A stretch of DNA of 64,000 nucleotides from Bordetella genomosp. 12 (lineage in GTDB: Bacteria > Pseudomonadota > Gammaproteobacteria > Burkholderiales > Burkholderiaceae_B), in contig NZ_NEVU01000003.1 of the NCBI RefSeq assembly GCF_002261355.1, positions 124,001 through 188,000 on the forward strand. Reading direction: 5' to 3'. Positions 41,454 through 56,949 of this stretch are shown here, piece after piece. A model generated the notes under the pieces. The model saw nothing but the letters and a program-made list of their open reading frames with translations, was not told the origin of the DNA and searched no databases. Position 1 is the stretch's first letter; each line of letters opens with the position of its first letter. Both the position numbers and the translations under genes were made by a program.

Positions 41454-41484
41454 ACTTATCCACAAAACCAGTGGATAAGTTTTG
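41454..41484. repeat. Inverted DnaA-box-like repeat (ACTTATCCAC)
   Basis: ACTTATCCAC (41454-41463) and its exact complement GTGGATAAGT (41471-41480) are seven bases apart. The left arm forms the perfect DnaA box TTATCCACA (41456-41464), and the right arm reads TTATCCACT on the other strand. The plus strand continues TTTT to 41484, so the element could also be a weak terminator of the MocR gene or a bidirectional one for the small gene beyond it. Both readings fit. Confidence 0.55.
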
Positions 41485-41494
41485 CCGGCAACGA

Positions 41495-41740
41495 TCACTT
41501 CAGGGCTGCCTGCACCATGTCGCGCACGCTTTCGAAGCCGGCCATGTATTGCGGATTTTCGGAACGGGCCAGCAGCGTGGAGTAATTCTTTTCGAGTTGG
41601 GCCTCGATGGCTTCCTTCAAGCCGGGCGAGGTCTTGACCAGATGCAGGGTCGCGGCCAAGGTCGCGTTCAGCGCGTCGATGCGCCCGCCCTGGTGCGATA
41701 CCGTATGCACGATGACGGCGATCTGTTCCTGAATATCCAT
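41495..41740 (-). CDS. Small hypothetical protein
   Basis: An 81-residue protein, largely helical (IDALNATLAATLHLVKTSPGLKEAIEAQLEK). GAGAGAGG precedes the ATG at 41740. No family recognised. It is convergent with the MocR gene; the inverted repeat lies between them. Confidence 0.6.
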   Translation of the reverse strand: MDIQEQIAVIVHTVSHQGGRIDALNATLAATLHLVKTSPGLKEAIEAQLEKNYSTLLARSENPQYMAGFESVRDMVQAALK

Positions 41741-41867
41741 GGCCTCTCTCTCAGTAAAGCACCGCATGCGCGGCAGATGGGGCGGATGCTAGCACGCCCG
41801 TCCGGCGCCGGGCCGGCCTGGCACTGACATAGAATACCGGCATCGCAGCCTTGTTTCGGATACCGAC

Positions 41868-42176
41868 ATGCTTCTTCGCTTCGCCCTGCCGCTTTGCCTG
41901 CTTTCGCTGCTGACCGCATGCGGTGTCAGTAGCGAAATCAAAGCCGTCGACAAGGACCGCTACCAGATTCGCTACAACGCCGGCGCCAAGGCCATGACCT
42001 GGGTCGAGATCAAAAATCAGGCCCGGCAAGAAGCCGAGGACTATTGCGCCCGCAAGAATCAGCGTTATGCCCGCCCTGAAGTCAGTTCCAACCATGCCAC
42101 CGGCCTCATGCCCAAGGAAGCGTTGGTGACCTTCAGCTGCGAGGACAAGCCCGCCCCTGCTGCCGCTGGCAAGTAA
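41868..42176 (+). CDS. Small lipoprotein, unrecognised
   Basis: A 102-residue lipoprotein. MLLRFALPLCLLSLLTAC ends in a lipobox (LTAC, Cys18). The mature domain includes YQIRYNAGAKAMTWVEIKNQARQEAEDYCARKNQ, a helix-rich part with a Cys pair (YCARK and FSCED) that may form a disulfide. Family unknown. It ends four bases from the beta-lactamase gene, convergent. Confidence 0.72.
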   Translation: MLLRFALPLCLLSLLTACGVSSEIKAVDKDRYQIRYNAGAKAMTWVEIKNQARQEAEDYCARKNQRYARPEVSSNHATGLMPKEALVTFSCEDKPAPAAAGK

Positions 42177-42180
42177 GCCG

Positions 42181-43095
42181 CTAGCCGGCCTGCAAACGCG
42201 CCGACGTCAAGGCGTGCACCAGAATCCGCGCCGCGTCGGCCAAGACGCGCTCGCGCTCCGGCGGGGGCAAGGGTGATTCGGTCAGGTAGGCGCTGATCAC
42301 CACCGGCCCGGTGGAAGGCGGCCAGGCCACGCCAATATCGTTGCAAGTGCCGTGCTCGCCGGCGCCCGTGCGATGCCCGAAGGCCCACCCGGCTGGCAGG
42401 CCGGCCCGCAAGCGCTCCTGCCCGGTGCGGCAATGCAACAGCCAATCGCGCAGACGCTCGCGCTGCGGCTCGGGCAAGGCCTCGCCCAGCACCAACTGCC
42501 GCAGATTGCCCGCCATGGCCGCGGGCGTGGTGGTGTCGCGCTCATCGCCAGGCTGCGCCTGATTGAGCGCGGTCTCCAAACGATCAAGACGCGTCACGGT
42601 ATCGCCCAGCGTTCGCGCGTAGGCGGTCACACCGGGCGGCCCGCCGATGGTCGACAGCAAAAGATTGGCCGCGGTGTTATCGCCCACGAGCAGGGCTGCC
42701 TCGCACAAGTGGCCCAGCGTCATCCCCTCATTGAGACGCTGCTGGGTAACCGGCGAATAGGCCACGAGATCGGCCGCGCTCAAGCGCATCGGCCGGGAAA
42801 GGTCGTCTTCGCCGCGCGCCACGCGCGCCAGCACGGCCGCCACCGCCAACACCTTGAAGGTACTGCACAGGGCGAAGCGCTCATCGGCCCGATATCCGGC
42901 GGTGTAGCCGCTTTGCAGATCGAGCAGGTGAACGCCCAGGCGCCCACCTTCGCGAGCCTCCAGGCGGGCCAGTTGGCGCTGCGCATCATCGCTGGCAGCC
43001 GGCAGGTTGTCCCGCACGCCCGCCAGAGCGGGCATGCCCAGCGCCGAAGCACCCACCCAGGCCAGCAGGCCCACGCCAAACGCTCTTCTGTCCAT
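42181..43095 (-). CDS. Class A beta-lactamase with Gly at Ambler position 130
   Basis: A 304-residue serine beta-lactamase, with a Tat-like signal (DRRAFGV... LAG). The Ser70-x-x-Lys73 motif is STFK (Ser78, Lys81 here), Glu166-x-x-Leu-Asn170 is ETALN (Glu174), and the KTG triad is RTG (Arg242), as in carbenicillinases. Counting from Ser78 puts Gly138 at Ambler 130, where almost all class A enzymes have Ser (SDN); here it reads GDN. The coding bases are unambiguous (GGC GAT AAC). Ser130 normally passes the proton to the leaving group. Activity or spectrum should therefore be altered. Sequence 3' of KTG (GTCNDIGVAW) resembles CTX-M-type enzymes. Divergent from a PAP2 phosphatase. Confidence 0.9.
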   Translation of the reverse strand: MDRRAFGVGLLAWVGASALGMPALAGVRDNLPAASDDAQRQLARLEAREGGRLGVHLLDLQSGYTAGYRADERFALCSTFKVLAVAAVLARVARGEDDLSRPMRLSAADLVAYSPVTQQRLNEGMTLGHLCEAALLVGDNTAANLLLSTIGGPPGVTAYARTLGDTVTRLDRLETALNQAQPGDERDTTTPAAMAGNLRQLVLGEALPEPQRERLRDWLLHCRTGQERLRAGLPAGWAFGHRTGAGEHGTCNDIGVAWPPSTGPVVISAYLTESPLPPPERERVLADAARILVHALTSARLQAG

Positions 43096-43235
43096 CGCAC
43101 TATCCCCAGAAAACCATCGCCTTGCGCAAAACGCCATGGTACTGCGAATCCGGCGCTGACCCTGGGCAGCCAATTTGACGTTTTTTCGATCCTCGCGCGG
43201 CTAGCATGGCGCCGTCTTTTCAAGGTTGTTCCGCG

Positions 43236-43955
43236 ATGCCGTCCCCCCGTTTGCCCCTTTCCCCCGCCGCCTACATTGCCATCTACGTCGTCGGGCTGCC
43301 CGGCCTGCTCGCAGCCATCGCGTATCTCGCTGGCCACAGCGGCCTGGATCTGACCCTGGCCCGGTACTTCTATGACCCGATCAGCCGCCGTTTTCCCTTG
43401 AGTCAACTGCCGACTCTGGAACTGCTGGGCCATCAGGCCGTTCTCGCCCTCCCGCTGGGCCTGGCCGCGGTCGCTCTCATCGGGCTGGCCCTGGCGGCAT
43501 TGCGGCCGCGGCTGCACGCATGGCTGCTGCCTTGCGCACTCTTGCTGACCGCCATGGCGGCGGTGCCCTTGCTGATTGCGGTCTTGAAGAACATTACTGC
43601 CCTGCCCCGCCCTTATCGCCTGCAGATGTTCGGCGGCGACATGCTCATGCCGACGCGCTGGTGGGCGGGCGGCACGACCCCCGCCGGCCATGCGCTGCCG
43701 AGCCATCACGCCGCCGCCGGCTATAGCCTGGGGCTGCTGTACTTCGTCGGTTGGGCCACCCGCCGCCCCGCCTTGCGCTGGGGCGGCCTGGCGTTGGGGC
43801 TGATCCTGGGCGCGGCGCTGAGCAGCGTTCGCATCATGCAGGGCGCGCACTTTCTGAGCCAGACGCTGTGGTCGGCCGCCGTCGTGAGCCTGATCGGCGG
43901 CCTGTGCTTTCTGCCGCTGCTGCGCGCCGAGCCCGGGCCAGTGCGGACTCAGTGA
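43236..43955 (+). CDS. PAP2-family phosphatase, membrane-bound
   Basis: A 239-residue protein with five or six membrane segments. The PAP2 triad is split: KNITALPRPY (motif 1), PSHHAAAG (motif 2, PSHH in place of the usual PSGH) and SSVRIMQGAHFLSQTLW (motif 3, with a non-canonical second half where the usual Asp is Thr). Members hydrolyse lipid phosphates, such as undecaprenyl pyrophosphate or phosphatidic acid, at the outer face of the membrane. The gene ends seven bases inside livF, convergent. It may be an ordinary housekeeping enzyme or linked to lipid A. Confidence 0.85.
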   Translation: MPSPRLPLSPAAYIAIYVVGLPGLLAAIAYLAGHSGLDLTLARYFYDPISRRFPLSQLPTLELLGHQAVLALPLGLAAVALIGLALAALRPRLHAWLLPCALLLTAMAAVPLLIAVLKNITALPRPYRLQMFGGDMLMPTRWWAGGTTPAGHALPSHHAAAGYSLGLLYFVGWATRRPALRWGGLALGLILGAALSSVRIMQGAHFLSQTLWSAAVVSLIGGLCFLPLLRAEPGPVRTQ

Positions 43956-44671
43956 CGCTGTTTGCCCAGATAGGCCTGGCGCACGCGTTCGCTGGCCAGC
44001 AGTTCCTGGCCGCTGCCCTGCATCACGATACTGCCGACCTCGAGCACATAGGCGCGGTCGGAGATGGCCAGGGCCTGGTTGGCCATTTGCTCGACCAGCA
44101 GGATGGTCATGCCCTGTTCCTTGAGCGCGCGGATGATGCGGAAGATCTCCGCGACGATGAGCGGGGCCAGGCCCAGCGAGGGCTCATCGAGCATCAGGAT
44201 GCGGGGTTTGCTCATCAGGGCGCGGCAGATGGCCAGCATCTGCTGCTCGCCGCCGGACAAAGTGCCCGCGTACTGTTCGCGCCGCTCTTTGAGGCGCGGG
44301 AACATCGCAAAGCAGGTTTCGATCTCGGCATCGAGCACGGCCTGGGGCTCACGCCGCAGAAACGCGCCAAGCAGCAGGTTGTCGTGAACGGTCTGGTCCG
44401 GGAAGACCTGCCGGCCTTCGGGCACATGGGCGATGCCCAGGCCCACGCGCTGGTGCGCGGGGATGCCGGCCAGGTCCTGGCCCTCGAGCAGCACCTGGCC
44501 GGTGGATTTCTCGATGCCCGAGAGCGCGCGCATCATGCTGCTCTTGCCCGCCCCGTTGCCGCCGATGATGGTCACGATCTCGTGGCGCTCGACGTGCAGC
44601 GACACTTCCTTGAGCGCGTTGACCGCGCCGTAGTTGACCGAGAGGTTCTGGATATCTAGCAATCTGCTCAT
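43949..44671 (-). CDS. livF: Branched-chain amino acid-type ABC ATPase (LivF)
   Basis: A 240-residue LivF-type ATPase with Walker A GGNGAGKSS, signature LSGGEQQMLAICRALM and Walker B ILMLDEPSLGLAP. It pairs with the LivG module of the fused gene upstream. Start ATG 44671 is nine bases past the fusion's stop. Last gene of the catabolic cluster. Substrate specificity resides in the binding protein at 47505. Confidence 0.92.
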   Translation of the reverse strand: MSRLLDIQNLSVNYGAVNALKEVSLHVERHEIVTIIGGNGAGKSSMMRALSGIEKSTGQVLLEGQDLAGIPAHQRVGLGIAHVPEGRQVFPDQTVHDNLLLGAFLRREPQAVLDAEIETCFAMFPRLKERREQYAGTLSGGEQQMLAICRALMSKPRILMLDEPSLGLAPLIVAEIFRIIRALKEQGMTILLVEQMANQALAISDRAYVLEVGSIVMQGSGQELLASERVRQAYLGKQRH

Positions 44672-44680
44672 GACTGGCTC

Positions 44681-46438
44681 CTACGCCGGGGCGCCCAGGT
44701 AGGCTTCGATGACTTTGGGGTTCTCCTGGATCTGGGCGGGCAGGCCGCTGGCGATCTTCACGCCATAGTCCAGCACCACGATCTGATCCGAGATGGCCAT
44801 GACGAGGTCCATGTGATGCTCGATGAGCAGCACCGTCAGGCCCTTGTCGCGCAGCCGGGCGATCAGTCCGGTGAGCGCGTCGGTCTCGGCAGGGTTCAGG
44901 CCCGCGGCCGGCTCGTCGAGCAAGAGCAGCTCGGGCATGGCGGCCACCGCGCGGGCGATCTCCAGGCGGCGCTGCAGGCCGTAGGGCAGGCTGTTGGCCG
45001 CGTCATCGGCGTAGCGCTCGAGTTCGAAGAACTTCAGGATGGCATAGGCCTCGCGGCGCATGCGCCGCTCCTCGGCCAGGCTGGAGGGCAGACCCAGCAG
45101 GTTGGCCCAGAAGCCGGAGCGCTGCACGCGGTACAGGCCCACCATGACGTTCTCCAGCGTGCTCAGGCCCTCGAAGAGCTTGAGGTTCTGGAAGGTGCGC
45201 CCGATGCCCAGCGAGGCGATCTGATCGGCCGGCAGGCCCACCAGGTCGTGATCCTTGAAGCGGATGCTGCCCGCATCGGGCGTGACCAGCCCGGAGAGCA
45301 GGTTCAGCGTGGTGGTCTTGCCCGCGCCGTTGGGGCCGATGAGCGAGACGATGCTGCCTTCCTGGATGCTGAAGGACACCTTGTTGGTGGGCACCACGCC
45401 GCCGAAGGCCTTGTACAGGTCCTTGACCACCAGCAGGTCGCCGGCGCCTTGCTTGCGGGTCTGCGTGGGCGACCAGGGTTTGATGGCCTCGCGCTCGCGG
45501 GCCGAGAGCAGGCTGCGGCGCGGCAGCACGCGCGCCAGCAGGCCGGACAGGCCTTCGGGCATGGCATAGAGCGCGAACAGCAGGATCAGGCCATAGGCGA
45601 AGTGCTGCACCTCGGGCCAGCGCGCGAGCATGGCATCGATCACGGTCAGCACCACCGCGCCCAGGAAGGACCCGGTGGGCGAGCGCCCGCCAAAGAGCAC
45701 CAGCACCAGGAAGAAGACCGAGAGGTTGAAGTTGACGAAGTCGGAGTTGATGTACTGGTTTTGCTGGGCCACCAGGCCGCCGGCGATGCCGCAGGTGATG
45801 GCGCTGATGACAAAGGCCAGGATCTTGAAGCGGTAGACGCTGATGCCCACGCTGCCGGCGGCGATCTCCGAGGTGCGCACGGCGGCAAAGCCGCGGCCGA
45901 AGCGGCCGTTGAGCAGCAGCGAGGTGGCCGCATGCAGCAGCAGGCCGATCACCACCACCACGACCACCCACTGGCGCCCGTCGAGCGGCGCGCCGCCCCA
46001 GGTCAGGCCGGTGATGCCGTAAAAGCCCTCCTGGCCCTTGAAGACGTCGGTCCATTCGGAGACGATCTTCTCGATGAGCAGGCCGAAGGCGATGGTGACC
46101 ATGGCCAGGCTGGGGCCTTTGACCTTGAGCGCGGGCAGCGCGATGGCCACGCCGAACAGGGCCGAGATCACGATGGCCGCGGCCAGCGCCAGCCAGGGGT
46201 TGACCTGGTAGTTCACCGTGAGCAGCGCCACCGTGTAGGCGCCCACGCCGAACAGGCCGGCGTGGCCCAGGGACTTCTGGCCGGTCTGGCCGACCAGGAT
46301 GTTAAAGCCCGTGGCGGCGATGTAATACACGCCGATGTTAAAGAGGATGAGCAGGTAGAAATCGTTCAAACCCGAGTAGGCGGCAGCCACGGCCAGAGCG
46401 GCCACGCACAGCGGGACGAGGAGAGGACGCAGATTCAT
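44681..46438 (-). CDS. LivM-LivG fusion: branched-chain-type permease joined to its ATPase
   Basis: A 585-residue fusion. Residues 1-320 are a LivM permease with about ten membrane segments (FNILVGQTGQKSLGHAGLFGVGAY; the EAA-like loop). A 40-residue linker (REREAIKPWSPTQTRKQG) joins it to LivG (about 345-585) with Walker A GPNGAGKTT, signature LPYGLQRRLEIARAV and Walker B LLLLDEPAAGLNP. Most ABC systems keep these as two genes. The frame is uninterrupted, so the join is real. It overlaps livH by ATGA. Confidence 0.92.
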   Translation of the reverse strand: MNLRPLLVPLCVAALAVAAAYSGLNDFYLLILFNIGVYYIAATGFNILVGQTGQKSLGHAGLFGVGAYTVALLTVNYQVNPWLALAAAIVISALFGVAIALPALKVKGPSLAMVTIAFGLLIEKIVSEWTDVFKGQEGFYGITGLTWGGAPLDGRQWVVVVVVIGLLLHAATSLLLNGRFGRGFAAVRTSEIAAGSVGISVYRFKILAFVISAITCGIAGGLVAQQNQYINSDFVNFNLSVFFLVLVLFGGRSPTGSFLGAVVLTVIDAMLARWPEVQHFAYGLILLFALYAMPEGLSGLLARVLPRRSLLSAREREAIKPWSPTQTRKQGAGDLLVVKDLYKAFGGVVPTNKVSFSIQEGSIVSLIGPNGAGKTTTLNLLSGLVTPDAGSIRFKDHDLVGLPADQIASLGIGRTFQNLKLFEGLSTLENVMVGLYRVQRSGFWANLLGLPSSLAEERRMRREAYAILKFFELERYADDAANSLPYGLQRRLEIARAVAAMPELLLLDEPAAGLNPAETDALTGLIARLRDKGLTVLLIEHHMDLVMAISDQIVVLDYGVKIASGLPAQIQENPKVIEAYLGAPA

Positions 46439-47349
46439 ACTTTCTCCGCGTGGACACGGCCCAGGATGCCGGCGGGCCGGAAATAGAGCACGACGATGAT
46501 GAGCGCGAAGACAGCGATCTCGCGCAGATTGGAGTACCAAAGGCCGATGAGGGATTCCAGCAGGCCGATCAGAAAGCCGCCGAAGATGCAGCCGCGCGGG
46601 TTCTCCAGGCCGCCGAGGATGGCGGCCGAGAAGGCCTTGAGCGAGAGCAGCGTGCCGACGAAGACGGAAGCCGTGGCGATGGGGGCAACCATGACGCCCG
46701 CAACCGCGGCCAGGGCCGAGCTGATGGCGAAGACACCCACGGCGACCGCGTTGGCATTGATGCCCATGAGGCTGGCGGCCGATTTACTGAAGGCGACCGC
46801 GCGCACGGCCTTGCCCATCTTGGTGCGATGCAGCGCCCAGTCCAGCACGATCATCAGGACCAGGGTGGTGGCAAAGACCAGGATCTCCTGCGGGCGCACG
46901 CCGGCGCCCAGGATGTTGACCACGCCCTCGCCCAGCGGGGAGGCCACGGCGATGGGCGCCGGGCCCCAGATGAGCAGAGCCAGGTTCTGGATGATGATGC
47001 CGAAACCGATGGTGCTCATGACCCAGGACAGACCGGCCTCGCCCACGAAGTGCTTGATGGCGGTGATGTAGAGCACGTAGCCCAGCAGGGCCAACACCAG
47101 CATGGCCGCGGCCAGGGCGAACAGGAAGGTGCCCCAGGTGACGTCCTGCGGTGACGGAAAACCGATCAGCTTGCCCTGGGTGACCAGCACGATGGCGCTG
47201 ATGCCGATGAGCCCGGCCAGGGCCAGAAACGCCCCTTGGCCGAAATTGAAGGTCTTGGTCGTGGTGTAGGTGATGCTGAAACCGAACGCGACCAGGGCAT
47301 ACACGCTGCCCATGGCCAATCCACTGAGTATGGCTTGTAGTAAAGGCAT
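46435..47349 (-). CDS. livH: LivH-type ABC permease
   Basis: A 304-residue permease with eight to nine membrane segments and the family's GLAMGSVYALVAFGFSITY start, YITAIKHF, and a C-terminal GGLENPRGCIFGGFLIGLLESL. The GAGG site eight bases before ATG 47349 fits. It follows the binding protein gene after 155 bases that hold two G+C hairpins. LivH pairs with the LivM part of the next gene. Confidence 0.93.
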   Translation of the reverse strand: MPLLQAILSGLAMGSVYALVAFGFSITYTTTKTFNFGQGAFLALAGLIGISAIVLVTQGKLIGFPSPQDVTWGTFLFALAAAMLVLALLGYVLYITAIKHFVGEAGLSWVMSTIGFGIIIQNLALLIWGPAPIAVASPLGEGVVNILGAGVRPQEILVFATTLVLMIVLDWALHRTKMGKAVRAVAFSKSAASLMGINANAVAVGVFAISSALAAVAGVMVAPIATASVFVGTLLSLKAFSAAILGGLENPRGCIFGGFLIGLLESLIGLWYSNLREIAVFALIIVVLYFRPAGILGRVHAEKV

Positions 47350-47401
47350 GATCCGGACCTCGCCGTCGCAGGAGTTCGATACCCGCCGGCAGCGTAGCTG
47401 T

Positions 47402-47494
47402 GCGTGCCGGGCCGGCCGCTGGCGCAGACCGGCACGCGAGGAAGAGAGGCAGTGGAGCCGGGACTCCCCGCCGGGCCGCGCCCGCGCGGCCCGG
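47402..47494 (-). repeat. Two G+C hairpins between the binding protein and permease genes
   Basis: A 9-bp stem (GCGTGCCGG, 47402-47410, with 47429-47437) and a 10-bp stem (CCGGGCCGCG, 47471-47480, with 47485-47494, four-base loop). No U-run. Such hairpins behind a binding protein gene often protect its mRNA from 3' decay and let the protein be made in excess over the permease. Confidence 0.55.
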
Positions 47495-47504
47495 GGCACC
47501 GACG

Positions 47505-48695
47505 TTATTGCTTGAGGTCTTCCGGCTTCATCTGGCGCGTGATGTCGTCATCGATGGACACCACCTTGCCGTCGACCCAACGCACCAGGCGGAAGTCTTT
47601 GTACGACAGCGCTTCATGGTTTTCCTTGGTGAACGCCGGCGCATAAGTCTTGATCACGCCATCGACCTTGCCCAGGTTGTCCAGCGCGGCTTGCACCTTC
47701 TCGCCATCGGTGGATTTCGCCTGCTCCATGGCGGCGGCCAGCAATTTGACCGAATCATAGGCATGCGCGGCGAACACGTAAGTGGGCAGTTTGCCGTCAC
47801 GCTTGACGATGGTTTCGTACAACGCCTTGGACTTGGGCGTGGAGTCTTCGGTAATGGAGGCCGAAAAGATCATCTTCTTGGCCAGATCCGGCCCCGCGAT
47901 GCGCAAGAAGGGCGAGCTCAAATTGGCCCAGGATCCCAAGGTGACCGGGTAGTAGTTGATCTTCTCCAGACTGCGCATGACGTGCGCGTTGGAATCGGCC
48001 AAGGCATAGACGATGAGGGTGTCGGCGCCCAGCGACTTGATCTTGTTCAACTGCGACGTCATGTCCGAGTCCTTGGGCCCGAACTTCTCATTGGCCACCG
48101 GCGTAATGCCATGCAGGCCCAGAACGTGCGTGGCGTCCTTGGCACCCTGCTGCCCATAACCGGTGGTATCGGCGATGATGGCGACCTTGCCATTCTTGCT
48201 CGCGCGCGCCGCATAGGCCGCCAGCAGCGTGATCTGGTCCAGGTCACGCATGGAGACGCGCGAAATGTAATTGACCGGCTCCTTGCTGTAGCGATTGGTG
48301 ATTTCCGTGGCAGTGGCGGAGGGCGAAATGGTCGGGATTTTTTTCTGCTGCACAATGTGCATCCAGGCCAGCATATTGCCGGAGTTCACGCCCCCGAGCA
48401 TGGCGACGACCTTCTCATTGTCGACCAGTTCGTTGGTGTTCTGGATGGACTTGGGCGGCGCACCCACGTCGTCGCGCGCGACGATCACGAGCTTTCGGCC
48501 CAGCACGCCGCCGGCGGCATTGATTTCGTCCACGGCCTGGCGGGCGCCCGCCAGCGCCGACACCCCAAAGTCGGCCGAGCCGGTGGCCGACATATCGCTG
48601 TTGTAGCCAATCTTGATGTCCTGGGCCCAAGCTCCCTGGGCCATGGCGGCCAACAGGGCCGCGCCTGCAAAACGGAACAGCTGCTTATGCATCAT
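47505..48695 (-). CDS. Branched-chain-type ABC substrate-binding protein
   Basis: A 396-residue periplasmic binding protein of the type I LivJ/LivK fold. The signal runs to about MAQGAWAQ (near residue 24), and the mature part starts DIKIGYNSDMSATGSADFG, with DVGAPPKSIQNTNELVDNEKV and GYGQQGAKDATHV. The ligand pocket cannot be read for a specific compound. These proteins bind amino acids, but many relatives bind aromatic acids, amides or short-chain acids. It sits between E2 and the permease genes, so its ligand probably feeds the E1/E2 pathway. Confidence 0.9.
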   Translation of the reverse strand: MMHKQLFRFAGAALLAAMAQGAWAQDIKIGYNSDMSATGSADFGVSALAGARQAVDEINAAGGVLGRKLVIVARDDVGAPPKSIQNTNELVDNEKVVAMLGGVNSGNMLAWMHIVQQKKIPTISPSATATEITNRYSKEPVNYISRVSMRDLDQITLLAAYAARASKNGKVAIIADTTGYGQQGAKDATHVLGLHGITPVANEKFGPKDSDMTSQLNKIKSLGADTLIVYALADSNAHVMRSLEKINYYPVTLGSWANLSSPFLRIAGPDLAKKMIFSASITEDSTPKSKALYETIVKRDGKLPTYVFAAHAYDSVKLLAAAMEQAKSTDGEKVQAALDNLGKVDGVIKTYAPAFTKENHEALSYKDFRLVRWVDGKVVSIDDDITRQMKPEDLKQ

Positions 48696-48764
48696 TGTTG
48701 TCTCCAGTCCTTTGATTTCCATTGCCGCGCCGGTCTCGTGCCGGCTGCGGCTACCCTTGCGGCC

Positions 48765-50018
48765 CTAAAGAATCAGTTCGATAGGGTTTTCCAACAAGTT
48801 CTGTACGGCAGCCAGATAGCGGGCGCCCGCCGCGCCATCGACCACGCGATGATCGGCCGACAACGTCAGTGACATCACATTGCCGATGCGGATTTCGTCA
48901 CCGTCGACCACGGGCTGGCGCAGCACGGCGCCCGCTGCCAGGATGGCGCTTTGCGGCGGATTGATGATGGCCGCGAACTCATGCACGCCATACATCCCCA
49001 GGTTAGAGATGGTGAGGCTGCCGCCTTCGTACTGTTCGGGGCGCAGCCGGCCCCGGCGCGCCAGATCCACCAGATCGCTCAACTGCCCGGCCAGCGCACG
49101 CAAGCCGGCCTGGCCCACGTCCCGCAACACCGGGGTGATAAGGCCGTCGTCCAAGGCCACGGCCACGCCGATATCGACCTGCCCATGGCGCAAGGTGCCG
49201 CCTTCAGTCCATTGCACATTGACGTCGGGCACCTGTTGCAAAGCCCGGGCCGCCGCCAGCACGAGCAGATCGTTCAGGCTGTAGCGACGATCCTGGGCCG
49301 CGTTGAGCCGCGTCCGAGCGGCCAGCAGACCGTCCATGCGGCACTGCACACTCAGATAGAAGTGCGGGATGTCCTGTTTGGATTGCACCAGGCGCCGGGC
49401 GATCGTGCGGCGCATCGGTGTGTGCGGCGTCAGGCCCCCACTCGCGGGCGGCGCAGAGGCCTGGGCGGGCAACGATGAGGCCCTGGAGGCGGCCGGCGCC
49501 GAGGTGGCGGGTGCCGGGGCCGGCGGCGCTGCGCGCTCGATATCCACCCGGACGATGCGTCCAGCCGGCCCGCTGCCAGACAGGCTGCAAAGATCCACGC
49601 CGAGTTCGCGCGCCAGGCGCCGTGCCGAAGGGCTGGCAAAGACGCGCAGCGAAGCGGGTTCGTTCACTGCGGCGGGCATGGCGGCCTGAGGCAACGCGGC
49701 TGGCGCTGCCTCCACGGCAGGGGCCGGTGCTGCCCGGGCGAGATCGGCCCCGGCCTCAGCCGGCGCCGCCGCAGCGGACGCTGCCCGCAAAACGGCGATG
49801 ACGTCCCCCACGGGGACCTCCGCATCACCCGCTTCGACATGGATACGGTGCAGCACACCGCCGTCCAGGGCTTCGAGTTCGATGACCGCTTTGTCGGTCT
49901 CGATTTCTGCCAGGATATCGCCTGCGCGGATCGTCTCGCCGGTTTGCTTAAGCCACTGCAGGATCTTGCCTTGCGTCGTGCCCGCGCCGATGGCGGGCAT
50001 CACGACATTGATATCCAT
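48765..50018 (-). CDS. Dihydrolipoamide acyltransferase (E2)
   Basis: A 417-residue E2 with one lipoyl domain (residues 1-75, lipoyl Lys43 in EIETDKAVIELEA), a Pro/Ala linker, a peripheral-subunit-binding domain (FASPSARRLARELGVDLCSLSGSG, about 130-165), and the catalytic trimer domain (from about 195) with DHRVVDG (His390). It transfers an acyl group from E1 to CoA. The closest functional relatives are acetoin and pyruvate dehydrogenase E2 proteins. No E3 (lipoamide dehydrogenase) gene is in the cluster; it would have to come from elsewhere. Confidence 0.92.
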   Translation of the reverse strand: MDINVVMPAIGAGTTQGKILQWLKQTGETIRAGDILAEIETDKAVIELEALDGGVLHRIHVEAGDAEVPVGDVIAVLRAASAAAAPAEAGADLARAAPAPAVEAAPAALPQAAMPAAVNEPASLRVFASPSARRLARELGVDLCSLSGSGPAGRIVRVDIERAAPPAPAPATSAPAASRASSLPAQASAPPASGGLTPHTPMRRTIARRLVQSKQDIPHFYLSVQCRMDGLLAARTRLNAAQDRRYSLNDLLVLAAARALQQVPDVNVQWTEGGTLRHGQVDIGVAVALDDGLITPVLRDVGQAGLRALAGQLSDLVDLARRGRLRPEQYEGGSLTISNLGMYGVHEFAAIINPPQSAILAAGAVLRQPVVDGDEIRIGNVMSLTLSADHRVVDGAAGARYLAAVQNLLENPIELIL

Positions 50019-50030
50019 GTCGAACTTACC

Positions 50031-50729
50031 TCAAATGTTTGCCAGATTTCCGGTCTTCTCGATGTATTCCGCGGCATCCGAGATGTCCTGTACCACGGCC
50101 TGCCGCGCCCCCTCGGCATCGCGCCGCCGCAGCGCGTCCACCAGACGATCGTGATGCGCGAAAGACTCCCAACTTTCCGACTTGCGTTCTTTCCTGCCCA
50201 TGCTCAGCGAAAACAGCGGGGCGATCTGCAGCCAGATGTTTTCTATCATCGTGACCAGCAAAGGCATGCCCGCTGCCTCATACAATGCGAAATGCAGATT
50301 GCGGTTGGCTTCTATGGTCTTGAGGGCATCGATACGCGGCAGGTGGCCCAGGCGGTCGAACTCGCGGGCATGCGCCTGAATACGCGCCACCGTGGCATCG
50401 TCGATGACGCGCACGGCCTCGGCCGCGGCGAATCCCTCCAGGCAGCACCGGATGCGCACGATCTCGCGAAACTTGGCCAGATCCGGCTTGGGGACGCGCA
50501 AGCCGCGATTGGGCAGCATCTCCAATGCGCCTTCCGCCACGAGCTTGTTCACCGCTTCGCGCACGGGCATCGGGCTGGTATTGAGCACGGCGGCCAGGCC
50601 ACGCAGCGTGACCTTTTCGCCGGGCGGCACCGCGCCGCTCATCAGCAGCTGCCGGGTTTCGCTGTAGATCTGGTCGGCGACGGTGATACGCTCCTGCTTT
50701 TGCAGAAGCCCTTGCAAGATACTGTCCAT
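50031..50729 (-). CDS. GntR-family (FCD) regulator
   Basis: A 232-residue regulator. The winged HTH (residues 12-75) has VADQIYSETRQLLMSGAVPPGEKVTLRGLAAVLNTSPMPVREAVNKL, and the C-terminal FCD domain carries the ligand-binding helices with metal-binding His (NRNLHFALYEAAG). It lies inside the cluster between the SDR and E2 genes, so it is the likely local regulator, possibly acting at the palindrome at 54461-54470. ATG 50729 lies eight bases past the SDR stop. Confidence 0.9.
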   Translation of the reverse strand: MDSILQGLLQKQERITVADQIYSETRQLLMSGAVPPGEKVTLRGLAAVLNTSPMPVREAVNKLVAEGALEMLPNRGLRVPKPDLAKFREIVRIRCCLEGFAAAEAVRVIDDATVARIQAHAREFDRLGHLPRIDALKTIEANRNLHFALYEAAGMPLLVTMIENIWLQIAPLFSLSMGRKERKSESWESFAHHDRLVDALRRRDAEGARQAVVQDISDAAEYIEKTGNLANI

Positions 50730-50737
50730 GGTGTGTC

Positions 50738-51460
50738 TCAATTCATGTAGACGCCACCATTGACATCCAGGGTGGCGCCGCAGATGTAGCTCGCGCCATC
50801 AGAGCAAAGAAAAGCGATGGGCAAGGCGATCTCGCGAGGCTTGGCCTTGCGACCCATGGGAATTCTAGTCTCATCGAACGCCTGGCCCACGGTCATGGGC
50901 GTGTCGGTGGCGCCCGGCGCCACGCAGTTGACGATGACGCCGCTTTGCGCCCCGCGCCGCGCCAGCCATTTCACAAAAGCGAGCGTGCCTCCCTTGGCCG
51001 CGACATAGTGGGGACTTGCGGCCAGCCCGCCCATGCGCCCGGCGACTGACGCCACCAGCACCATGCGGCCGCCGCCTTGCGCCGCCATCCGCGCCAAGGC
51101 GGCCCGGCAAATATGCATCAAACCCAGGAGGTTGATGTCGACGACGCGCCGGAATACATCATCCCAGCCGTCTTCATTCCAATCATCCCAGGGACAGTAG
51201 CCCGCATTGGCCACCAGGGCATCCAGACGTTCAAGTCCGGCCACCGCTTGCTCGACCGCCTGCCTGTCGGTGACATCGAAGGCCAGCGCGCGGGCGCGGT
51301 ATCCCTGCTCGCATAGCGCCTGCGCCACCGCCTCGGGCGCCTGCAGATCGGCCAGCACGACGTCGGCGCCGAGCTCGGCGCAGACCCGCGCCGTTTCCGC
51401 GCCAATGCCGCCGGCCGCGCCCGTGATCAGAATGGTTTTTCCTTCAAGCCCGAACGGCAT
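50738..51460 (-). CDS. SDR-family dehydrogenase
   Basis: A 240-residue classical short-chain dehydrogenase. TGAAGGIGAE at the N-terminus binds NAD(P), NAG closes the motif in LVANAGY, and the catalytic Ser-Tyr-Lys are seen in VASVAGRMG and HYVAAKGG. Asp in VLADLQ near residue 36 favours NAD over NADP. Substrate: a hydroxy or keto compound, unknown. AGGAG precedes ATG 51460, which overlaps the E1 stop by 17 bases. It resembles the SDR at 53655 only in general fold. Confidence 0.9.
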   Translation of the reverse strand: MPFGLEGKTILITGAAGGIGAETARVCAELGADVVLADLQAPEAVAQALCEQGYRARALAFDVTDRQAVEQAVAGLERLDALVANAGYCPWDDWNEDGWDDVFRRVVDINLLGLMHICRAALARMAAQGGGRMVLVASVAGRMGGLAASPHYVAAKGGTLAFVKWLARRGAQSGVIVNCVAPGATDTPMTVGQAFDETRIPMGRKAKPREIALPIAFLCSDGASYICGATLDVNGGVYMN

Positions 51461-53639
51461 CCGCCTCTCCTTGTTGCGGCAGCCCACTCTCGGCCAACAT
51501 GCGGGCGATGAGCTGCCGGACGTCATCCGCGCCTGCCAGGGCCGCGCGCTCCAGAGCCTGTGACACGACAGGCGGCGCCCAACGTCCGGTCGCGCGCTGC
51601 ACGGGCTGATCCAGATAGTCAAAATCGCGCCGCTGGATTTCGTCAGCGATCAGCGCGCCCAGACTGGCTCCGCGCGTGGTCTGCTCGACGATGGCCACCC
51701 GGCCCGTCTTTCGAACCGAACGGCTGATGGTGTCGTAATCGATATCGCGCTGAGACAACGTACGCAGATCGATGACCTCCGCATCCACGCCCATCTCCTC
51801 GGCCACTTGCACGCACAGCTCGACCATGCTGAGGGTGGCCAACAAGGTGATCTGGCGACCTTCGCGCACACGGCGTGCGCGCCCCAACGGGATGCAGTAA
51901 TCGAGGTCTTTGGGCACGAGCGTCTTGCGCTTGTGCAGTTCCTGCGGTTCGAGCACCAACACGGGATCCTCGCATCGCAGCGCTGAGTTCATCAGGCCCA
52001 CGTAATCGAACGCATTGGACGGCGCCACGATGCGCCAGCCGGGAAACAGGGCAAAGACCCCGGCAGGGTCCATCGAGTGTTGCGAACCATACCCCTCCAG
52101 CCCCGGAATGCGCGTACGCAACACCAACGGCACCGATGCCGTGCCGTTGAACAAATGCCGGATCTTGCCCGCCTGGTTGAGCAGCTGATCGCCAGCCACG
52201 AGGAAGAAGTCGCTATACATCAGTTCGACGACCGGTTTGAGGCCCGACAGAGCAGCGCCGGTGGCCAGGCCGCAGAAGCCGTTTTCCGTGATCGGCGTGT
52301 TGATCAGCCGCCCGGCAAAGCGATCCGTCAGACCACGCGTGGCCCCCACCGTGCCGCCGCCCATATTGGCCACGTCTTCGCCAAAAACGTAGATGCGCTC
52401 GTCCTCGGCCATTCGGGCGCCCATGGTCCGGGCGATGGCTTCGATGTAGCTCATGGGCTCCATCTCTGCGGCATCGAAGTCCTCGGGCTCGGCGAAACGC
52501 GCGTCGTCGAACTCGCGCATGTCGCTGTTCAGGTGCGCATCCACGGTGCTGGCATCCGGCCACAGCTCGGCGCGGATACGGGTTGCAGAGCCGCTGCCTT
52601 CGACGCACGAGGCAGCGGCGGCCTCGATAGCTTCGCAGACCGCCTGATCGATGGCAGCCAGCCGGCCTTCGTCCAGAATGCCGCGTGCGGGCAGCTCCCG
52701 CTGCAGAAACAGCCAGGGATCGCGGGCTTTCCATTCGGCCTCTTCTTCGCGGGTGCGGTAGCCAAAAGCGCTGCCCGGAATCGAAGAGCTCTGGTGATAG
52801 TAGCGGTATACCTCCGCAAGAATCAGAACCGGGCGTCCCTCCTGGCGGATGGCGTTCTGTGCCCAACGGCCAGCCAGCCAGACCGCAAAGGGATTCATGC
52901 CGTCGACCTTGACCGAGGCGATGCCGTGTCCTTGCGGCCGCGTCAGCAGTTCGGTCTGATAAGTGGATTGCTCCACACTCATCGACACGGCGTACTTGTT
53001 GTTCTCGAGGAAGAAGATCATCGGCAGCCCGTAGAGCGCCGCCAGATTCATGGCTTCATGGGTCGCGCCCTGATGCACGGCACCATCGCCAAAGAAGGTG
53101 ACCATCAGCTTGTCGGAGCCGCGCTGCTTTTCGGCAAAGGCATGTCCGCAGGCGATGGGGATGCCGCCGGCAACGATGGCATTGGTGCCCATGATGCCCA
53201 AGTCCGCCCGTCGCAAGTGCATGGACCCTCCGCGACCGCCGGTCCAACCGCCCGACAGGCCGAGAATTTCCTGCATCAAACCCTGCAGTTCTGCGCGGAT
53301 GCGCGCACTCAGCACGCCGTCGCGCGGGGCTTCGTAAATGGCGTTGACGGCCTTGGCGACGCATTGATGATGGGCCCGATGCGTACCGTTCATCAAGGTA
53401 TCGACCGGCAAGGCTGCCACGCATCCGGCCGCGGCGCCTTCCTGGCCGATGCTCGAATGTGCGGGACCGTGCACGAGATTCAGTTTGTCGAGCTGGAGGA
53501 TTTTCTCCTCGAAACGCCTGGCCGCCAGGAAGAGCGTGACCAGGCGCTCGGCCTCGGCCGGCGTCAGTTGCGCCCAATCGCTGTCTTCGACTACCAGCCT
53601 ACGCGCGGCCGTGCCGGCGTCGATATCTTCAAATCGCAT
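51444..53639 (-). CDS. Thiamine-dependent dehydrogenase E1, alpha and beta fused
   Basis: A 731-residue fusion. Residues 1-350 are the alpha chain, with the ThDP motif GDGAVHQ (184-190) to ENN (212-214) and SMHL at 139-142. From about 395 comes the beta chain (MSYIEAIARTMGARM, GEDVANMGGGTVG, TPITENGFCGLATGAALSGL with the conserved Glu). In most bacteria these are two genes. The E1 decarboxylates a 2-oxo acid or cleaves an acyloin onto the E2 lipoyl group. The fusion with one lipoyl-domain E2 is close to acetoin-type complexes. Frame is intact throughout. Confidence 0.93.
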   Translation of the reverse strand: MRFEDIDAGTAARRLVVEDSDWAQLTPAEAERLVTLFLAARRFEEKILQLDKLNLVHGPAHSSIGQEGAAAGCVAALPVDTLMNGTHRAHHQCVAKAVNAIYEAPRDGVLSARIRAELQGLMQEILGLSGGWTGGRGGSMHLRRADLGIMGTNAIVAGGIPIACGHAFAEKQRGSDKLMVTFFGDGAVHQGATHEAMNLAALYGLPMIFFLENNKYAVSMSVEQSTYQTELLTRPQGHGIASVKVDGMNPFAVWLAGRWAQNAIRQEGRPVLILAEVYRYYHQSSSIPGSAFGYRTREEEAEWKARDPWLFLQRELPARGILDEGRLAAIDQAVCEAIEAAAASCVEGSGSATRIRAELWPDASTVDAHLNSDMREFDDARFAEPEDFDAAEMEPMSYIEAIARTMGARMAEDERIYVFGEDVANMGGGTVGATRGLTDRFAGRLINTPITENGFCGLATGAALSGLKPVVELMYSDFFLVAGDQLLNQAGKIRHLFNGTASVPLVLRTRIPGLEGYGSQHSMDPAGVFALFPGWRIVAPSNAFDYVGLMNSALRCEDPVLVLEPQELHKRKTLVPKDLDYCIPLGRARRVREGRQITLLATLSMVELCVQVAEEMGVDAEVIDLRTLSQRDIDYDTISRSVRKTGRVAIVEQTTRGASLGALIADEIQRRDFDYLDQPVQRATGRWAPPVVSQALERAALAGADDVRQLIARMLAESGLPQQGEADAVRA

Positions 53640-53654
53640 GCCGTTATCCGTCCG

Positions 53655-54425
53655 TCAGATGTGCGCGGTCACGCCGCCGTCGACCACCAGGCTGGCGCCG
53701 GTCACGAAGTCGGAAGCCGCGGCGGCCAGGAAGATCGTTGCCCCGATCAGATCCTCGGGTTCGCCCCAGCGCCCGAGCGGGGTCGTGGCCACGACCCGTT
53801 CGGCGTGGCCCGGAATATCGACCCGAGCCTGACGCGACAGCGCCGTATCGATCCACCCGGGCTGAATCACGTTGACGGTGATGCCGTCGGCAGCCCAGGC
53901 GCAGGCCAGCGATCGGGTCATTTGCAACACGCCGCCTTTGCTCGCGGAGTAGGCTGCCGTCACCGCATTGGACGCCAGCGCCAGGATGGAACCGATATTG
54001 ATGATCTTGCCGCGGCCTTGCGCCTTCATGACAGGGTAGACGGCCTGGCTCATGTTGAAGCTGCCCTTGAGATTGATATCGACGATGCGGTCCCATACCG
54101 CTTCTTCGTAGCATTCCGGACGCATTCGGGTGTTGACGCCTGCGCAATTGATGAGCACATCAATCCCGCCGAATTCGCTTACAGCCTGCGCGACCGCCGC
54201 CGTGCACGCCTGGCGATCCTCGACACGCAAGGCCAGCGCCGCTACCTTGCCCCCCGTTGCGGCCAACTCGGCGACCAGGCCGTCCAGGGCTTCCCCCGCC
54301 AGATCGGCCAGCACCAGCGACGCCCCTTCCTGCCCGAGCGCGCGGGACATGGCGCTGCCGATCCCTCCTGCCGCACCGGTAATCATCACGGTCTTGCCGC
54401 GCAGATCGAAAAGCTTGCTGCTCAT
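53655..54425 (-). CDS. SDR-family dehydrogenase, first gene of the catabolic cluster
   Basis: A 256-residue classical SDR. TGAAGGIGSA, LINCAGVN (NAG as CAG), IGSILALASNAVTAAYSASKGG (catalytic Ser, Tyr, Lys) and the C-terminal GASLVVDGGVT are present. It heads the minus-strand operon and probably oxidises the imported compound. Asp in VLADLAG favours NAD. A perfect 10-bp palindrome TGTGATCACA lies 36 bases before the ATG at 54425. The 15-base gap to E1 indicates one transcript. Confidence 0.9.
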   Translation of the reverse strand: MSSKLFDLRGKTVMITGAAGGIGSAMSRALGQEGASLVLADLAGEALDGLVAELAATGGKVAALALRVEDRQACTAAVAQAVSEFGGIDVLINCAGVNTRMRPECYEEAVWDRIVDINLKGSFNMSQAVYPVMKAQGRGKIINIGSILALASNAVTAAYSASKGGVLQMTRSLACAWAADGITVNVIQPGWIDTALSRQARVDIPGHAERVVATTPLGRWGEPEDLIGATIFLAAAASDFVTGASLVVDGGVTAHI

Positions 54426-54460
54426 TTGTCTCCGTCCAGCTTTTTTGTTGATATGTGAGA

Positions 54461-54470
54461 TGTGATCACA
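54461..54470. promoter_or_regulatory. Palindromic operator candidate before the catabolic cluster
   Basis: TGTGATCACA is a perfect 10-bp palindrome, set in the A+T-rich sequence ATGTGAGATGTGATCACAAA with a second GTGAGA half upstream. It lies 36 bases before the first gene. It fits a small symmetric site for the GntR regulator encoded in the cluster; CRP-type sites would need a six-base spacer, which is missing. Confidence 0.45.
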
Positions 54471-54562
54471 AATCAAATTTTAAGAAGCCACCTCCAGCGG
54501 CGTCAATGCGCGACGTATCGGGATCTACCCTAGCCCGCCGTCTGCACTTCGCGCCCCCCATG

Positions 54563-54586
54563 CAAAACGCCCGGACAAGCCGGGCG
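54563..54586 (-). terminator. Intrinsic terminator after the TPMT gene
   Basis: CGCCCGG pairs with CCGGGCG around five bases (54568-54586), followed on the minus strand by TTTT. It is 21 bases past the stop. Confidence 0.82.
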
Positions 54587-54607
54587 GTGCACTCCCTGCA
54601 GGCAGGC

Positions 54608-55261
54608 TCAGGTCTGGGCGCCGAGGCGGAACACCAGGGTGTCGAGGCGGCTCACGCCGCGCGCGGCGAACTTGGGCTCTTTGGCGAGAATGTCGCGACG
54701 GTCGATGAGTCTGGCGCCGGCCCCATACAAGGCGAGCACCTGGCTCTCATCCAGCGCAAACGGCGGCCCCTCCATTTCGTTCTGGGGGTAGTCCAGCGTA
54801 AGGAGCAAGCCGCGGTGCGATGCGGGCATCTGTCCATAGACGTGCCTGACGTAGTCAGCGCGCATCGCGGCGGGCAAGGCGACCAGCGCGGCGCGGTCGT
54901 AGGCGGCCTGGCATTGGCCGAGCACCTCGCGATCCAGCTTGAAGATGTCGCCACAGATGATTTCCACGCCATGCGCGGCGTAATGCTCGCCGTACGCGCT
55001 GCTCCAGCGCCGCGGGCTCCAGCCCTGTTCGGCAAAGAACTGCTCGATCGCCAACGGCGACAGTTCCACCCCCAGCACCTCATGGCCCTGCTCCGCCAGC
55101 CACACCATGTCCAGCGTTTTGCCTGCCAGGGGCACCAGCACCCGCGCCGAGCGCGGCACCTCCAGCGCCGGCCAATACTTCTGCAGCAAAGGCGTCACCC
55201 GGGCCTGATGAAAGCCCGTTTGACCTTCACGCCAACGTTGCAGCCAGAAATCCGCTTCCAT
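54608..55261 (-). CDS. tpm: Thiopurine S-methyltransferase family protein
   Basis: A 217-residue SAM-dependent methyltransferase of the TPMT type, equal in length to bacterial Tpm. The N-terminus [22 protein letters not shown] motif [27 protein letters not shown], and [20 protein letters not shown] are characteristic. In bacteria it methylates tellurite, selenite or thiols. GGAG precedes ATG 55261 by five bases. It is divergent from the SDR at 55409 and has its own terminator. Confidence 0.92.
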
Positions 55262-55408
55262 ATGTCTCCACCTTGTCATGCGCCGCGCACCCGGCGGCAG
55301 CTGCCTGCATTGTAGGTGGCGAAAGACCGCACTGGTGGCAGGGCCGCCCCGCTGCGGCCCGCGCCCATCGGGATATGCTGATCGCCAATCACCCACCTGG
55401 AGACACTG

Positions 55409-56182
55409 ATGGATCTGCAACTCGGCGGCAAGCGTGTACTCATCACCGGCGCATCCAAGGGCATCGGCCTGGCCTGTGCGCTGTCGTTCGCGCGCGAAGG
55501 CGCCCGCCCGATTCTGGTGGCGCGGGACCGGCAGGCCCTGGGCGATGCGGTGCAGGCTATCGGCGAACAAACCGCGGTGCAGGCGGAGTTCCTGGTCAGT
55601 GATCTGGCGCAACCCGGCGCCGCTCAGGCGCTGGCCGAGGAAGCCGGCGCGATTGACATCCTGGTGAACAATGCCGGCGCGATTCCCGGCGGATCACTGG
55701 AGCAGGTCGATGAACAACGATGGCGCGCCGCCTGGGACCTGAAAGTCTATGGCTTTATCAATCTGACGCGCGCGTGCTACCCCGCCATGCGCGAGCGCGG
55801 CAGCGGCGTAGTGGCCAACATCATCGGCAAGGCGGGCGTGGCCCCCCGCGCGGACTATATCTGCGGGGCGACCGCCAACGCGGGTCTGATCGCCTTCACC
55901 CGTGCATTGGGCGGCCAAGCCCCTGAGCACGGCCTGCGCGTCTTCGGCGTGAACCCCACCCGCACCCGAACCGATCGGGTCGTGACGCTGGCGCAGCAGC
56001 GGGCGCAAGCCCGTTGGGGCGACCCGCAGCGCTGGCAAGAGACCCTCACCGACCTGCCGTTCGGGCGCCTGACGGAGCCGGCGGAGATCGCCGATGTGAT
56101 CGTCTTCGGCTGCTCGCCCAGAGCGGGGTACCTGAGCGGCACCGTCATCGATCTGGACGGCGGCGAGCAGTACACCGGCTAG
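55409..56182 (+). CDS. SDR-fold protein lacking the Tyr-Lys catalytic pair
   Basis: A 257-residue SDR with intact cofactor motifs: TGASKGIG (residues 13-20), SDLAQ and NNAG (87-90). In the catalytic region the sequence reads [23 protein letters not shown]. Tyr150 is present but the residue four positions on, where Lys is expected, is Ala154, and the usual Ser before it is Ile or Gly. The C-terminal [14 protein letters not shown] is normal. Such proteins are often non-canonical or partner subunits. ATG at 55409 follows GGAGA. It overlaps the DUF1275 gene by four bases, convergent. Confidence 0.85.
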
Positions 56183-56949
56183 CGGCGACGCATGCGCTCG
56201 GCCCGCCTGCCGAACATGGCGCGCACGTCATCGAGCACGGGCACAATGGCCAGCCCCGCCAGCAACAGAGCCAGCGGAAGCGTCGCGGCAAAGCCCAGCC
56301 TCGCATAGGCCAGTGCGCCAGTCAGGCCGCCCACGAAAAACAGGGCGACCATGAGGCTGAGCACCCGCAGTTTCTGGCGGTCTGCCACCACTCTGGGCGC
56401 GGCGGTGGCGCGCGCATTCCAGTACAGGAACTTGCCGAGTTCGATCCCGATGTCGGTCACCATGCCTGTGATGTGCGTGGTGCGTATCTCGGCCCGCGAC
56501 ACTTTCGTGATCATGGCATTTTGCAGACCCATGATGTAGCACAGCAGGATGACCGTCAGGGGCAGGTATAGCCACAGAAAGCGCTCGACACTGGCCCCCA
56601 TGAGGCCAAACAGCAGTAGCAGCGCGGCTTCGAGCAGCAGAGGCAGGGCATACTCGCTGGCCAGCCGGCCGCGCCGCGCGAAGTTGATCAGCCATGCGGA
56701 AGTCGCGGCGCCGCACACAAAGGCCAGCAGCGCGGCCAGCCCCTGGACGACCAGGATGGCGCTGCCCACGGCCAGATGATCGGCCATGGCCGACACGATG
56801 CCGGACATGTGCGAGGTGTACTGCGCGACGGCCAGAAACCCGCCGGCGTTGACGGCACCCGCGACGAATATAAGGACGTAGGCCAGATGCAGATTGGCCC
56901 GGGGCGTGCGTTGCGCCGCGGTCAGTCCGCGCAAATAGGGAATCGCCAC
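56179..56949 (-). CDS. DUF1275 (YoaK) family membrane protein
   Basis: A 256-residue protein with six membrane segments and the family's VLIFVAGAVNAGGFLAVAQYTSHMSGIVSAMADHLAVG, LQNAMITKVSRAEIRTTHITGMVTDIG and the C-terminal basic tail. YoaK-type proteins are inner-membrane proteins of unknown function. The start is uncertain: the GTG at 56949 follows GGGGGT and gives a short basic N-terminus; the longer frame upstream is Arg/Cys-rich and unlike the family. Confidence 0.82.
   Translation of the reverse strand: MAIPYLRGLTAAQRTPRANLHLAYVLIFVAGAVNAGGFLAVAQYTSHMSGIVSAMADHLAVGSAILVVQGLAALLAFVCGAATSAWLINFARRGRLASEYALPLLLEAALLLLFGLMGASVERFLWLYLPLTVILLCYIMGLQNAMITKVSRAEIRTTHITGMVTDIGIELGKFLYWNARATAAPRVVADRQKLRVLSLMVALFFVGGLTGALAYARLGFAATLPLALLLAGLAIVPVLDDVRAMFGRRAERMRRR

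Follow-up and report, generated by a model that had tools for sequence, protein, structure and literature searches.

We examined a cluster of nine genes in a 64,000-nucleotide stretch of the Bordetella genomosp. 12 genome (contig NZ_NEVU01000003.1, positions 124,001 to 188,000; hereafter the window), in which two short-chain dehydrogenases (SDRs), a fused E1 and an E2 of the 2-oxoacid dehydrogenase type and a GntR regulator are encoded together with a Liv-type ATP-binding cassette (ABC) importer. Comparison with relatives suggests, with a probability of roughly 0.5, that this is one GntR-controlled operon by which a small and probably branched hydroxycarboxylate is taken up and oxidised, and that it forms half of a two-module pathway. 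To judge from sequence, we seem to be dealing with ordinary enzyme families in a conserved, co-regulated, importer-linked set of two modules, whose borders were drawn too narrowly in an earlier note on this DNA. Below, G000 is the genome of the window, and other G- and L-numbers denote genomes and fetched loci.

The nine open reading frames (ORFs) are intact and all lie on the minus strand, running from 54425 to 43949 in the order SDR1, fused E1, SDR2, GntR, E2, periplasmic binding protein (SBP), LivH, LivM-LivG and LivF; a check of ORFs, translations, strand, coordinates and Pfam domains agrees throughout with the block that the earlier note had described. From SDR1 to LivF the intergenic gaps are 15, -17, 8, 12, 69, 155, -4 and 9 nt, the SBP-LivH gap being the longest and the others spanning -17 to 69 nt. 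Pfam recognises the two SDRs, places E1_dh, Transket_pyr and Transketolase_C on the single E1 chain, and finds GntR and FCD domains in the regulator and lipoyl, E3-binding and acyltransferase domains in E2. The importer, with Peripla_BP_6, BPD_transp_2, a BPD_transp_2-ABC_tran fusion and ABC_tran, has all the parts of a Liv-type system (an SBP, two permease domains and two ATPases), and the catalytic motifs of the cluster proteins are intact.

We then surveyed 268 genomes of the family, from 43 genera, for E1 orthologues (at least 70% identity), which were found in 26 genomes of 7 genera, the copy of G034 being in two pieces; a second, looser E1 group stands at 47-51% in this survey, the second E1 clade as a whole spanning 44-52%. 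Removal of six loci judged to be duplicates (L073, L074, L075, L077, L080, L084) from 35 E1-orthologue loci left 29, with L087 (52%) placed outside the clade; the loci fetched with flanks do not include those of G008, G013, G034 and G232. Locus counts come from tblastn probes with preset identity limits, some loci are cut by fetch or contig ends, and one of the match lists holds the best 80 of 575. Within about 12 kb, SDR2 is found at 28 of these 29 loci, GntR at 25, E2 at 24, SDR1 at 23 and a GMC alcohol oxidase at 21, so that the conservation as a unit proposed earlier is borne out by gene neighbourhood. In a tree of 40 fused E1s the 18 sampled orthologues form one clade (SH-aLRT 100, stem 0.81), and the SDR-E1-SDR-GntR arrangement recurs across betaproteobacterial genera; Vreelandella (L081) has it together with E2, and an uncultured Paracoccus (L079) has it in a stretch where no E2 was seen. 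Such recurrence is more than chance would give.

Importer genes flank the core at 28 of the 29 loci, the exception (L052) being one that ends at a contig end with no importer visible. Their type varies: 16 loci have a Liv-type SBP, 11 a tripartite ATP-independent periplasmic (TRAP) set, and one, from Rhizobium rhizogenes (L082), a ribose-type ABC importer recognised by eye. The eight sampled Liv loci form one group in the E1 tree (SH-aLRT 96), and the TRAP set may therefore be older and have been replaced by Liv later. The TRAP binding protein is nearest to 2hzk (SmoM in the record), known as the keto-acid binder TakP, and to 7ug8, a keto-acid-binding protein.

The importer and the enzymes look like one regulon under a candidate GntR operator. 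The palindrome TTGTGATCACA occurs as a single copy in the 4.5-Mb genome, where about 0.5 would be expected by base composition; in relatives it stands before SDR1, dctP or GMC, and at several TRAP loci it falls between the divergently oriented GMC and dctP genes. It is present at 24 of the 25 loci with GntR and at none of the four without (Fisher p 2e-4, not corrected for kinship). The regulator has the features of an FCD-type GntR repressor, namely a GntR winged helix-turn-helix, an FCD domain and a palindromic site at its own operon, to which it is predicted to bind. Promoter-like sites between 43700 and 54700 number one on the minus strand and two on both strands, against 1.4 expected from shuffles, which is weak evidence taken alone. 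Terminator-like sites on the minus strand are absent from the operon itself, and one stands upstream of its promoter. Since the operator tracks GntR and no such internal site is predicted, separate regulation of the importer and the E1/E2 genes, a finding that the earlier note had seen as fatal to a joint function, is not supported. The block has a single predicted promoter and operator region, and its importer seems, as had been proposed, a dedicated one.

The importer also leads to a second locus. Positions 43959..47350 of the minus strand, 3,392 bp of livHMGF, are 99.68% identical to L164:13555-16946, with all 11 mismatches at one end (46798-47345), whereas the SBP genes neighbouring the two copies share only about 81% DNA identity; this contrast suggests that the segment was recently duplicated or underwent gene conversion. 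Across species, most SBPs belong to one of two operon-tracking lineages, an E2-adjacent one (12 rows, 90/86) and a GMC-adjacent one (10 rows, 80/95), in a tree of moderate support from which five partial sequences were omitted. That a Liv importer merely happens to lie beside an unrelated E1/E2 operon might be read from the 155-nt gap and the recently copied livHMGF; yet SBP1, the binding protein of the cluster, is placed with the SBPs that stand next to E2 in Achromobacter, L044 and L051, and this, with the importer genes beside the core at all loci except the truncated L052, makes such an accident very improbable.

SBP1 itself says something of its ligand. Compared with HAAT (LivJHMGF) importers, the system has all the components, with LivM and LivG fused here; it differs in the TRAP substitutes of relatives and in the binding protein, where the alignment places W at the position of E in 4n0q and D in 3ipc (the D of 4gnr aligns one residue off) and keeps the A-T pair of the carboxylate stretch. 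We take the acidic residue to bind the amine and the A-T pair the carboxylate of the ligand, and the replacement of the one with retention of the other thus argues for a non-amino-acid ligand, likely a carboxylate without an amino group.

The second operon, 1.5 Mb from the window in G000 (L164), consists of a LysR regulator alongside an aldehyde dehydrogenase (ALDH), GMC, SBP2 at L164:12311-13501, LivHMGF, a class III CoA transferase and 3-hydroxy-3-methylglutaryl-CoA (HMG-CoA) lyase. In an Achromobacter (L038/L167, G002) the cluster runs directly into this operon, and in further Achromobacter-type loci (L033-L037, L039-L043, L076) SBP, LysR, ALDH and GMC follow the cluster, as far as fetched. 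A GMC orthologue (at least 68% identity) is present in 35 of the 268 genomes, including all 26 with an E1 orthologue; within the family the window module is therefore seen only where GMC exists. By genus, the 7 E1 genera all fall within the 9 of 43 that have GMC (hypergeometric 1e-6, kinship not corrected). The earlier proposal of uptake, oxidation and thiolytic cleavage of one compound holds in so far as importer and enzymes are a conserved unit; that a single compound is involved is doubtful, because the importer is common to the second operon and most SBPs belong to the two operon-tracking lineages. A 16-mer of the operator, allowing up to five mismatches, was absent from the stretches scanned before the ALDH-GMC operon (L164, L167, L038, L206) and from the two larger internal gaps of the window cluster, and the second module is therefore probably not under the cluster GntR in this genome.

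This difference in regulators (GntR and LysR), together with the separation of the loci in this genome, would suit two unrelated pathways with a common importer, the second module serving one acid and the window module a compound of another class, for instance a polyol or the acid of a sugar. Nine of the 35 genomes with GMC have no E1: in six (G005, G017, G082, G102, G103, G117) the second operon stands alone with an intact GMC, as far as the stretch goes; in G083 (L210, on G083:C1), of the same genus, GMC is broken and no Liv genes appear in the stretch shown, an apparent decay of the second module; G042 and G043 fall outside the loci examined. The sugar-type importer at L082 points the same way. 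Set against these are the constant company of GMC with E1 in the family and the position of GMC in the GntR operator region or in the operon itself in several relatives, and we regard two unrelated pathways as unlikely, if by no means negligible.

The linked-module reading gains its chemistry from the second operon, whose HMG-CoA lyase exceeds its family cut-off (349.8 versus 246 bits) and whose ALDH is nearest to succinate-semialdehyde dehydrogenases, below cut-offs. Three alphaproteobacterial clusters (L083, L085, L086) include a gene for a degradative HMG-CoA reductase, which adjoins the TRAP genes or separates SDR1 from E1. The reductase is over the cut-off in the L083 and L086 loci, in all three genomes behind L083, L085 and L086 (G272-G274) and in 1 of 14 control genomes; GMC was compared in seven genomes, and these three are also among the four in which no match exceeds 45% identity (best 40-45% or none in the three). 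One reductase would do on mevalonate the work of GMC, ALDH and CoA transferase, which makes mevalonate the leading candidate, and on sequence grounds the most likely substrate, of the second module. In Pseudomonas mevalonii mevalonate is catabolised through mvaA and mvaB, and its reductase appears in passages of the literature. The second operon resembles that system in ending in an HMG-CoA lyase, as do the L083, L085 and L086 clusters in holding a degradative reductase; it differs in that a genome search of G000 found no degradative HMG-CoA reductase, for which GMC, ALDH and CoA transferase would substitute.

The window module should act on a close structural relative of the second module's substrate, since an Achromobacter has two related SBPs with a single permease set. 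SBP1 would deliver a carboxylate that has no amino group; oxidation of its hydroxyls to a 2-oxo acid or acyloin would fall to the SDRs, together with GMC and ALDH from the second module; and E1-E2, with a housekeeping E3, would convert this into an acyl-CoA. The second module would take mevalonate through mevaldate to 3-hydroxy-3-methylglutarate and on to an HMG-CoA-like thioester, to be split by the lyase into acetyl-CoA and acetoacetate. For the window half, pantoate-like and acyloin chemistry are the candidates. By reasoning only, 2-C-methylerythritol and deoxy-branched sugars were rejected as substrates because they leave the HMG-CoA enzymes unexplained, and parapyruvate and 2-isopropylmalate because they offer GMC no primary alcohol.

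Several observations weigh against this two-module scheme. The CoA transferase is far below the cut-off of every named family, with succinate-glutarate CoA-transferase nearest, and no member of the cluster has a known substrate. G002, G077, G199 and G208 hold the cluster together with a degradative HMG-CoA reductase at another locus, so that mevalonate may already have another route there, and Polaromonas has GMC but an HMG-CoA lyase of only 39%. Nor is the set uniform: L046, L049 and L050 are without SDR1; L083, L085 and L086 have no nearby E2 or GntR; L078 holds GntR but no operator, and its SBP, like that of L205, falls outside both lineages of the SBP tree. Finally, the Rhizobium rhizogenes locus, with its sugar-type importer, belongs to a genome without HMG-CoA reductase and with a best GMC of 41%.

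How far the E1-E2 pair narrows the chemistry depends on its relationship to described complexes. Neither E1 nor E2 has a match that reaches the curated cut-off of any named model. Against pyruvate-type models, E1 scores 232.8 versus a cut-off of 393.85 for the alpha part, and 257.4 versus 454 and 246.5 versus 321 for the beta part; E2 comes close to TIGR01349, its nearest and also pyruvate-type, at 421.9 versus 445 bits. Features general to 2-oxoacid dehydrogenase complexes are present, including a thiamine diphosphate (ThDP) motif, a lipoyl lysine motif, an E3-binding domain and an acyltransferase motif. The pair resembles pyruvate and branched-chain 2-oxoacid dehydrogenases with heterotetrameric E1 in the ThDP motif, the alpha and beta domains, the full E2 with E3-binding domain and the separate E3; it differs in that E1 alpha and beta are fused, score below the curated cut-offs and belong to a set with SDRs, GntR and an importer. 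As had been claimed, the cluster itself has no E3 gene; the E3-binding domain of E2 leads one to expect an E3, and two genes over the family cut-off lie elsewhere in G000. An E3 adjoins the cluster in L081 (over the family cut-off) and in L078 (by eye), which supports a lipoyl-dependent dehydrogenase complex as a fair reading of E1-E2. The only other E1 match found in G000 was one split alpha/beta pair at 38-39% identity (L165, G000:C1:1128000-1147900, at 7699-9716), next to which comes a TRAP importer; the called ORFs there show no E2.

The earlier note had also likened the cluster to acetoin catabolism. In an acetoin-type scheme the SDRs would make an acyloin from a diol, E1-E2 would cleave it to acetyl-CoA (or another acyl-CoA) and an aldehyde, and the ALDH resembling succinate-semialdehyde dehydrogenase would oxidise the aldehyde. 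Acetoin dehydrogenase (aco) operons share with the cluster E1, E2 and dehydrogenases before the cleavage step; E1 alpha and beta both score best against pyruvate-type models, and fused E1s of the second clade likewise have SDRs and succinate-semialdehyde-type dehydrogenases as neighbours. The cluster departs from aco operons in its importer, its FCD-GntR regulator and its lack of an acetoin-type E2: the acetoin E2 model PRK14875 matches residues 4-161 only, the N-terminal lipoyl/E3-binding part, with 81.5 versus 307 bits. None of the nine genes is acoX or acoR, for which no other part of the genome was searched. The absence of acoX noted before is thus confirmed for the cluster, while the likeness in E2 is confined to its N-terminal part. 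With keto-acid-type TRAP importers at 11 of the 29 loci as a further objection, we consider an acetoin-type route rather unlikely.

A more specific alternative is that the window module degrades pantoate or a similar 2-hydroxy acid, GMC and ALDH acting on the primary alcohol and an SDR on the 2-hydroxyl, with decarboxylation to 2-oxoisovalerate and conversion by E1-E2 to isobutyryl-CoA. Mevalonate and pantoate are isomers (C6H12O4), which makes a common importer conceivable, and GMC and ALDH adjoin the module in relatives. HpcH/HpaI-like aldolases stand beside E1-SDR2 in L083 (12945-13721) and L085 (12939-13712), below named cut-offs where tested, and might split ketopantoate. The TRAP importers that replace Liv have a keto-acid-type binding protein, and uptake of pantoate by a TRAP transporter is reported in a passage of one paper (PMC5812351). 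The enzymes themselves argue otherwise: E1 alpha is nearer to pyruvate than to branched-chain enzymes (140 versus 93 bits), and E2 is nearest to a pyruvate-type model. No pantothenate hydrolase is recognised in the cluster, an amidase-like ORF (by eye) lying about 4 kb away in L080 only. Methylmalonate-semialdehyde dehydrogenase, a marker of isobutyryl-CoA use, occurs in all 18 genomes tested, whether or not they have the cluster, and so does not discriminate. Pantoate degradation by this route is therefore improbable in our judgement. More speculative still, and to be held as a long shot, is a system in which two isomeric branched dihydroxy acids enter through one kind of permease and two paralogous SBPs, mevalonate being used without HMG-CoA reductase, by GMC, ALDH, CoA transferase and HMG-CoA lyase, and the fused E1 and E2 serving for pantoate or another acid with equal branching; if true, the cluster would be part of a gene set for the catabolism of pantoate or that acid.

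Features of the cluster and its predicted control region (window coordinates)
Feature	Position	Strand	Evidence or remark
Sigma-70-like promoter (TTGACG, 18 nt, TAAAAT)	54477..54506	-	10/12 matches
Palindromic operator TTGTGATCACA (candidate)	54461..54471	.	about 35 nt before SDR1, just downstream of the -10 box
SDR1, short-chain dehydrogenase, 256 aa	53655..54425	-	motifs TGAAGGIG, YSASK
Fused E1 alpha-beta, ThDP-dependent, 731 aa	51444..53639	-	domains, motifs, tree
SDR2, 240 aa	50738..51460	-	start overlaps E1 end by 17 nt
FCD-type GntR regulator, 232 aa	50031..50729	-	domains; presence tracks operator
E2 dihydrolipoyl acyltransferase, 417 aa	48765..50018	-	lipoyl, E3-binding and catalytic domains
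SBP1, periplasmic binding protein (HAAT/Liv type), 396 aa	47505..48695	-	domain, tree, alignment
LivH permease, 304 aa	46435..47349	-	99% identical copy at G000:C1:1699555-1700466
LivM-LivG fusion, 585 aa	44681..46438	-	100% identical copy elsewhere in genome
LivF ATPase, 240 aa	43949..44671	-	99% identical copy elsewhere in genome

The gap between SBP1 and LivH (47350-47504) holds a very G+C-rich inverted repeat with no T run, and an Rfam scan of 40000-58000 gave no match. Directly 3' of LivF, two ORFs were recognised by eye, one class A beta-lactamase-like (42181-43173, minus strand) and one PAP2-phosphatase-like (43206-43955, plus strand). Elsewhere in the genome, a further Liv cluster (L237, G000:C2:1355000-1371000) has an SBP with 46% identity to SBP1, an iron-type alcohol dehydrogenase, an ALDH and a DUF1446/AtuA-like ORF (by eye). 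Among relatives, a methylisocitrate-lyase-like protein, below named cut-offs where tested, lies just upstream of E1 in L085 (9063-9986). Two clusters with second-clade fused E1s, in Caballeronia p2 (L216) and on a Rhodovulum plasmid (L220), combine a Liv importer with SDRs and an annotated shikimate dehydrogenase; L216 has a VOC protein between E1 and E2, and L220 has GMC and succinate-semialdehyde dehydrogenase. They may represent another orphan pathway, parallel to this one and similarly equipped.

As in the earlier note, we found no described pathway for this gene set, in our case in open-access full-text literature (titles and the starts of abstracts, with most subscription journals outside). 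That a conserved dehydrogenase complex, linked to an importer, has no assigned substrate shows a gap in the understanding of bacterial carbon use, and the comparison presented here narrows the search for its substrate to a small, probably non-amino carboxylic acid tied to HMG-CoA chemistry. Mevalonate, pantoate, their keto and aldehyde forms and related acyloins are the candidate ligands, and the single-copy operator-like site offers a handle for studying regulation. If true, the mevalonate route of the second operon would dispense with the reductase and so differ from the reductase-based route of Pseudomonas mevalonii.

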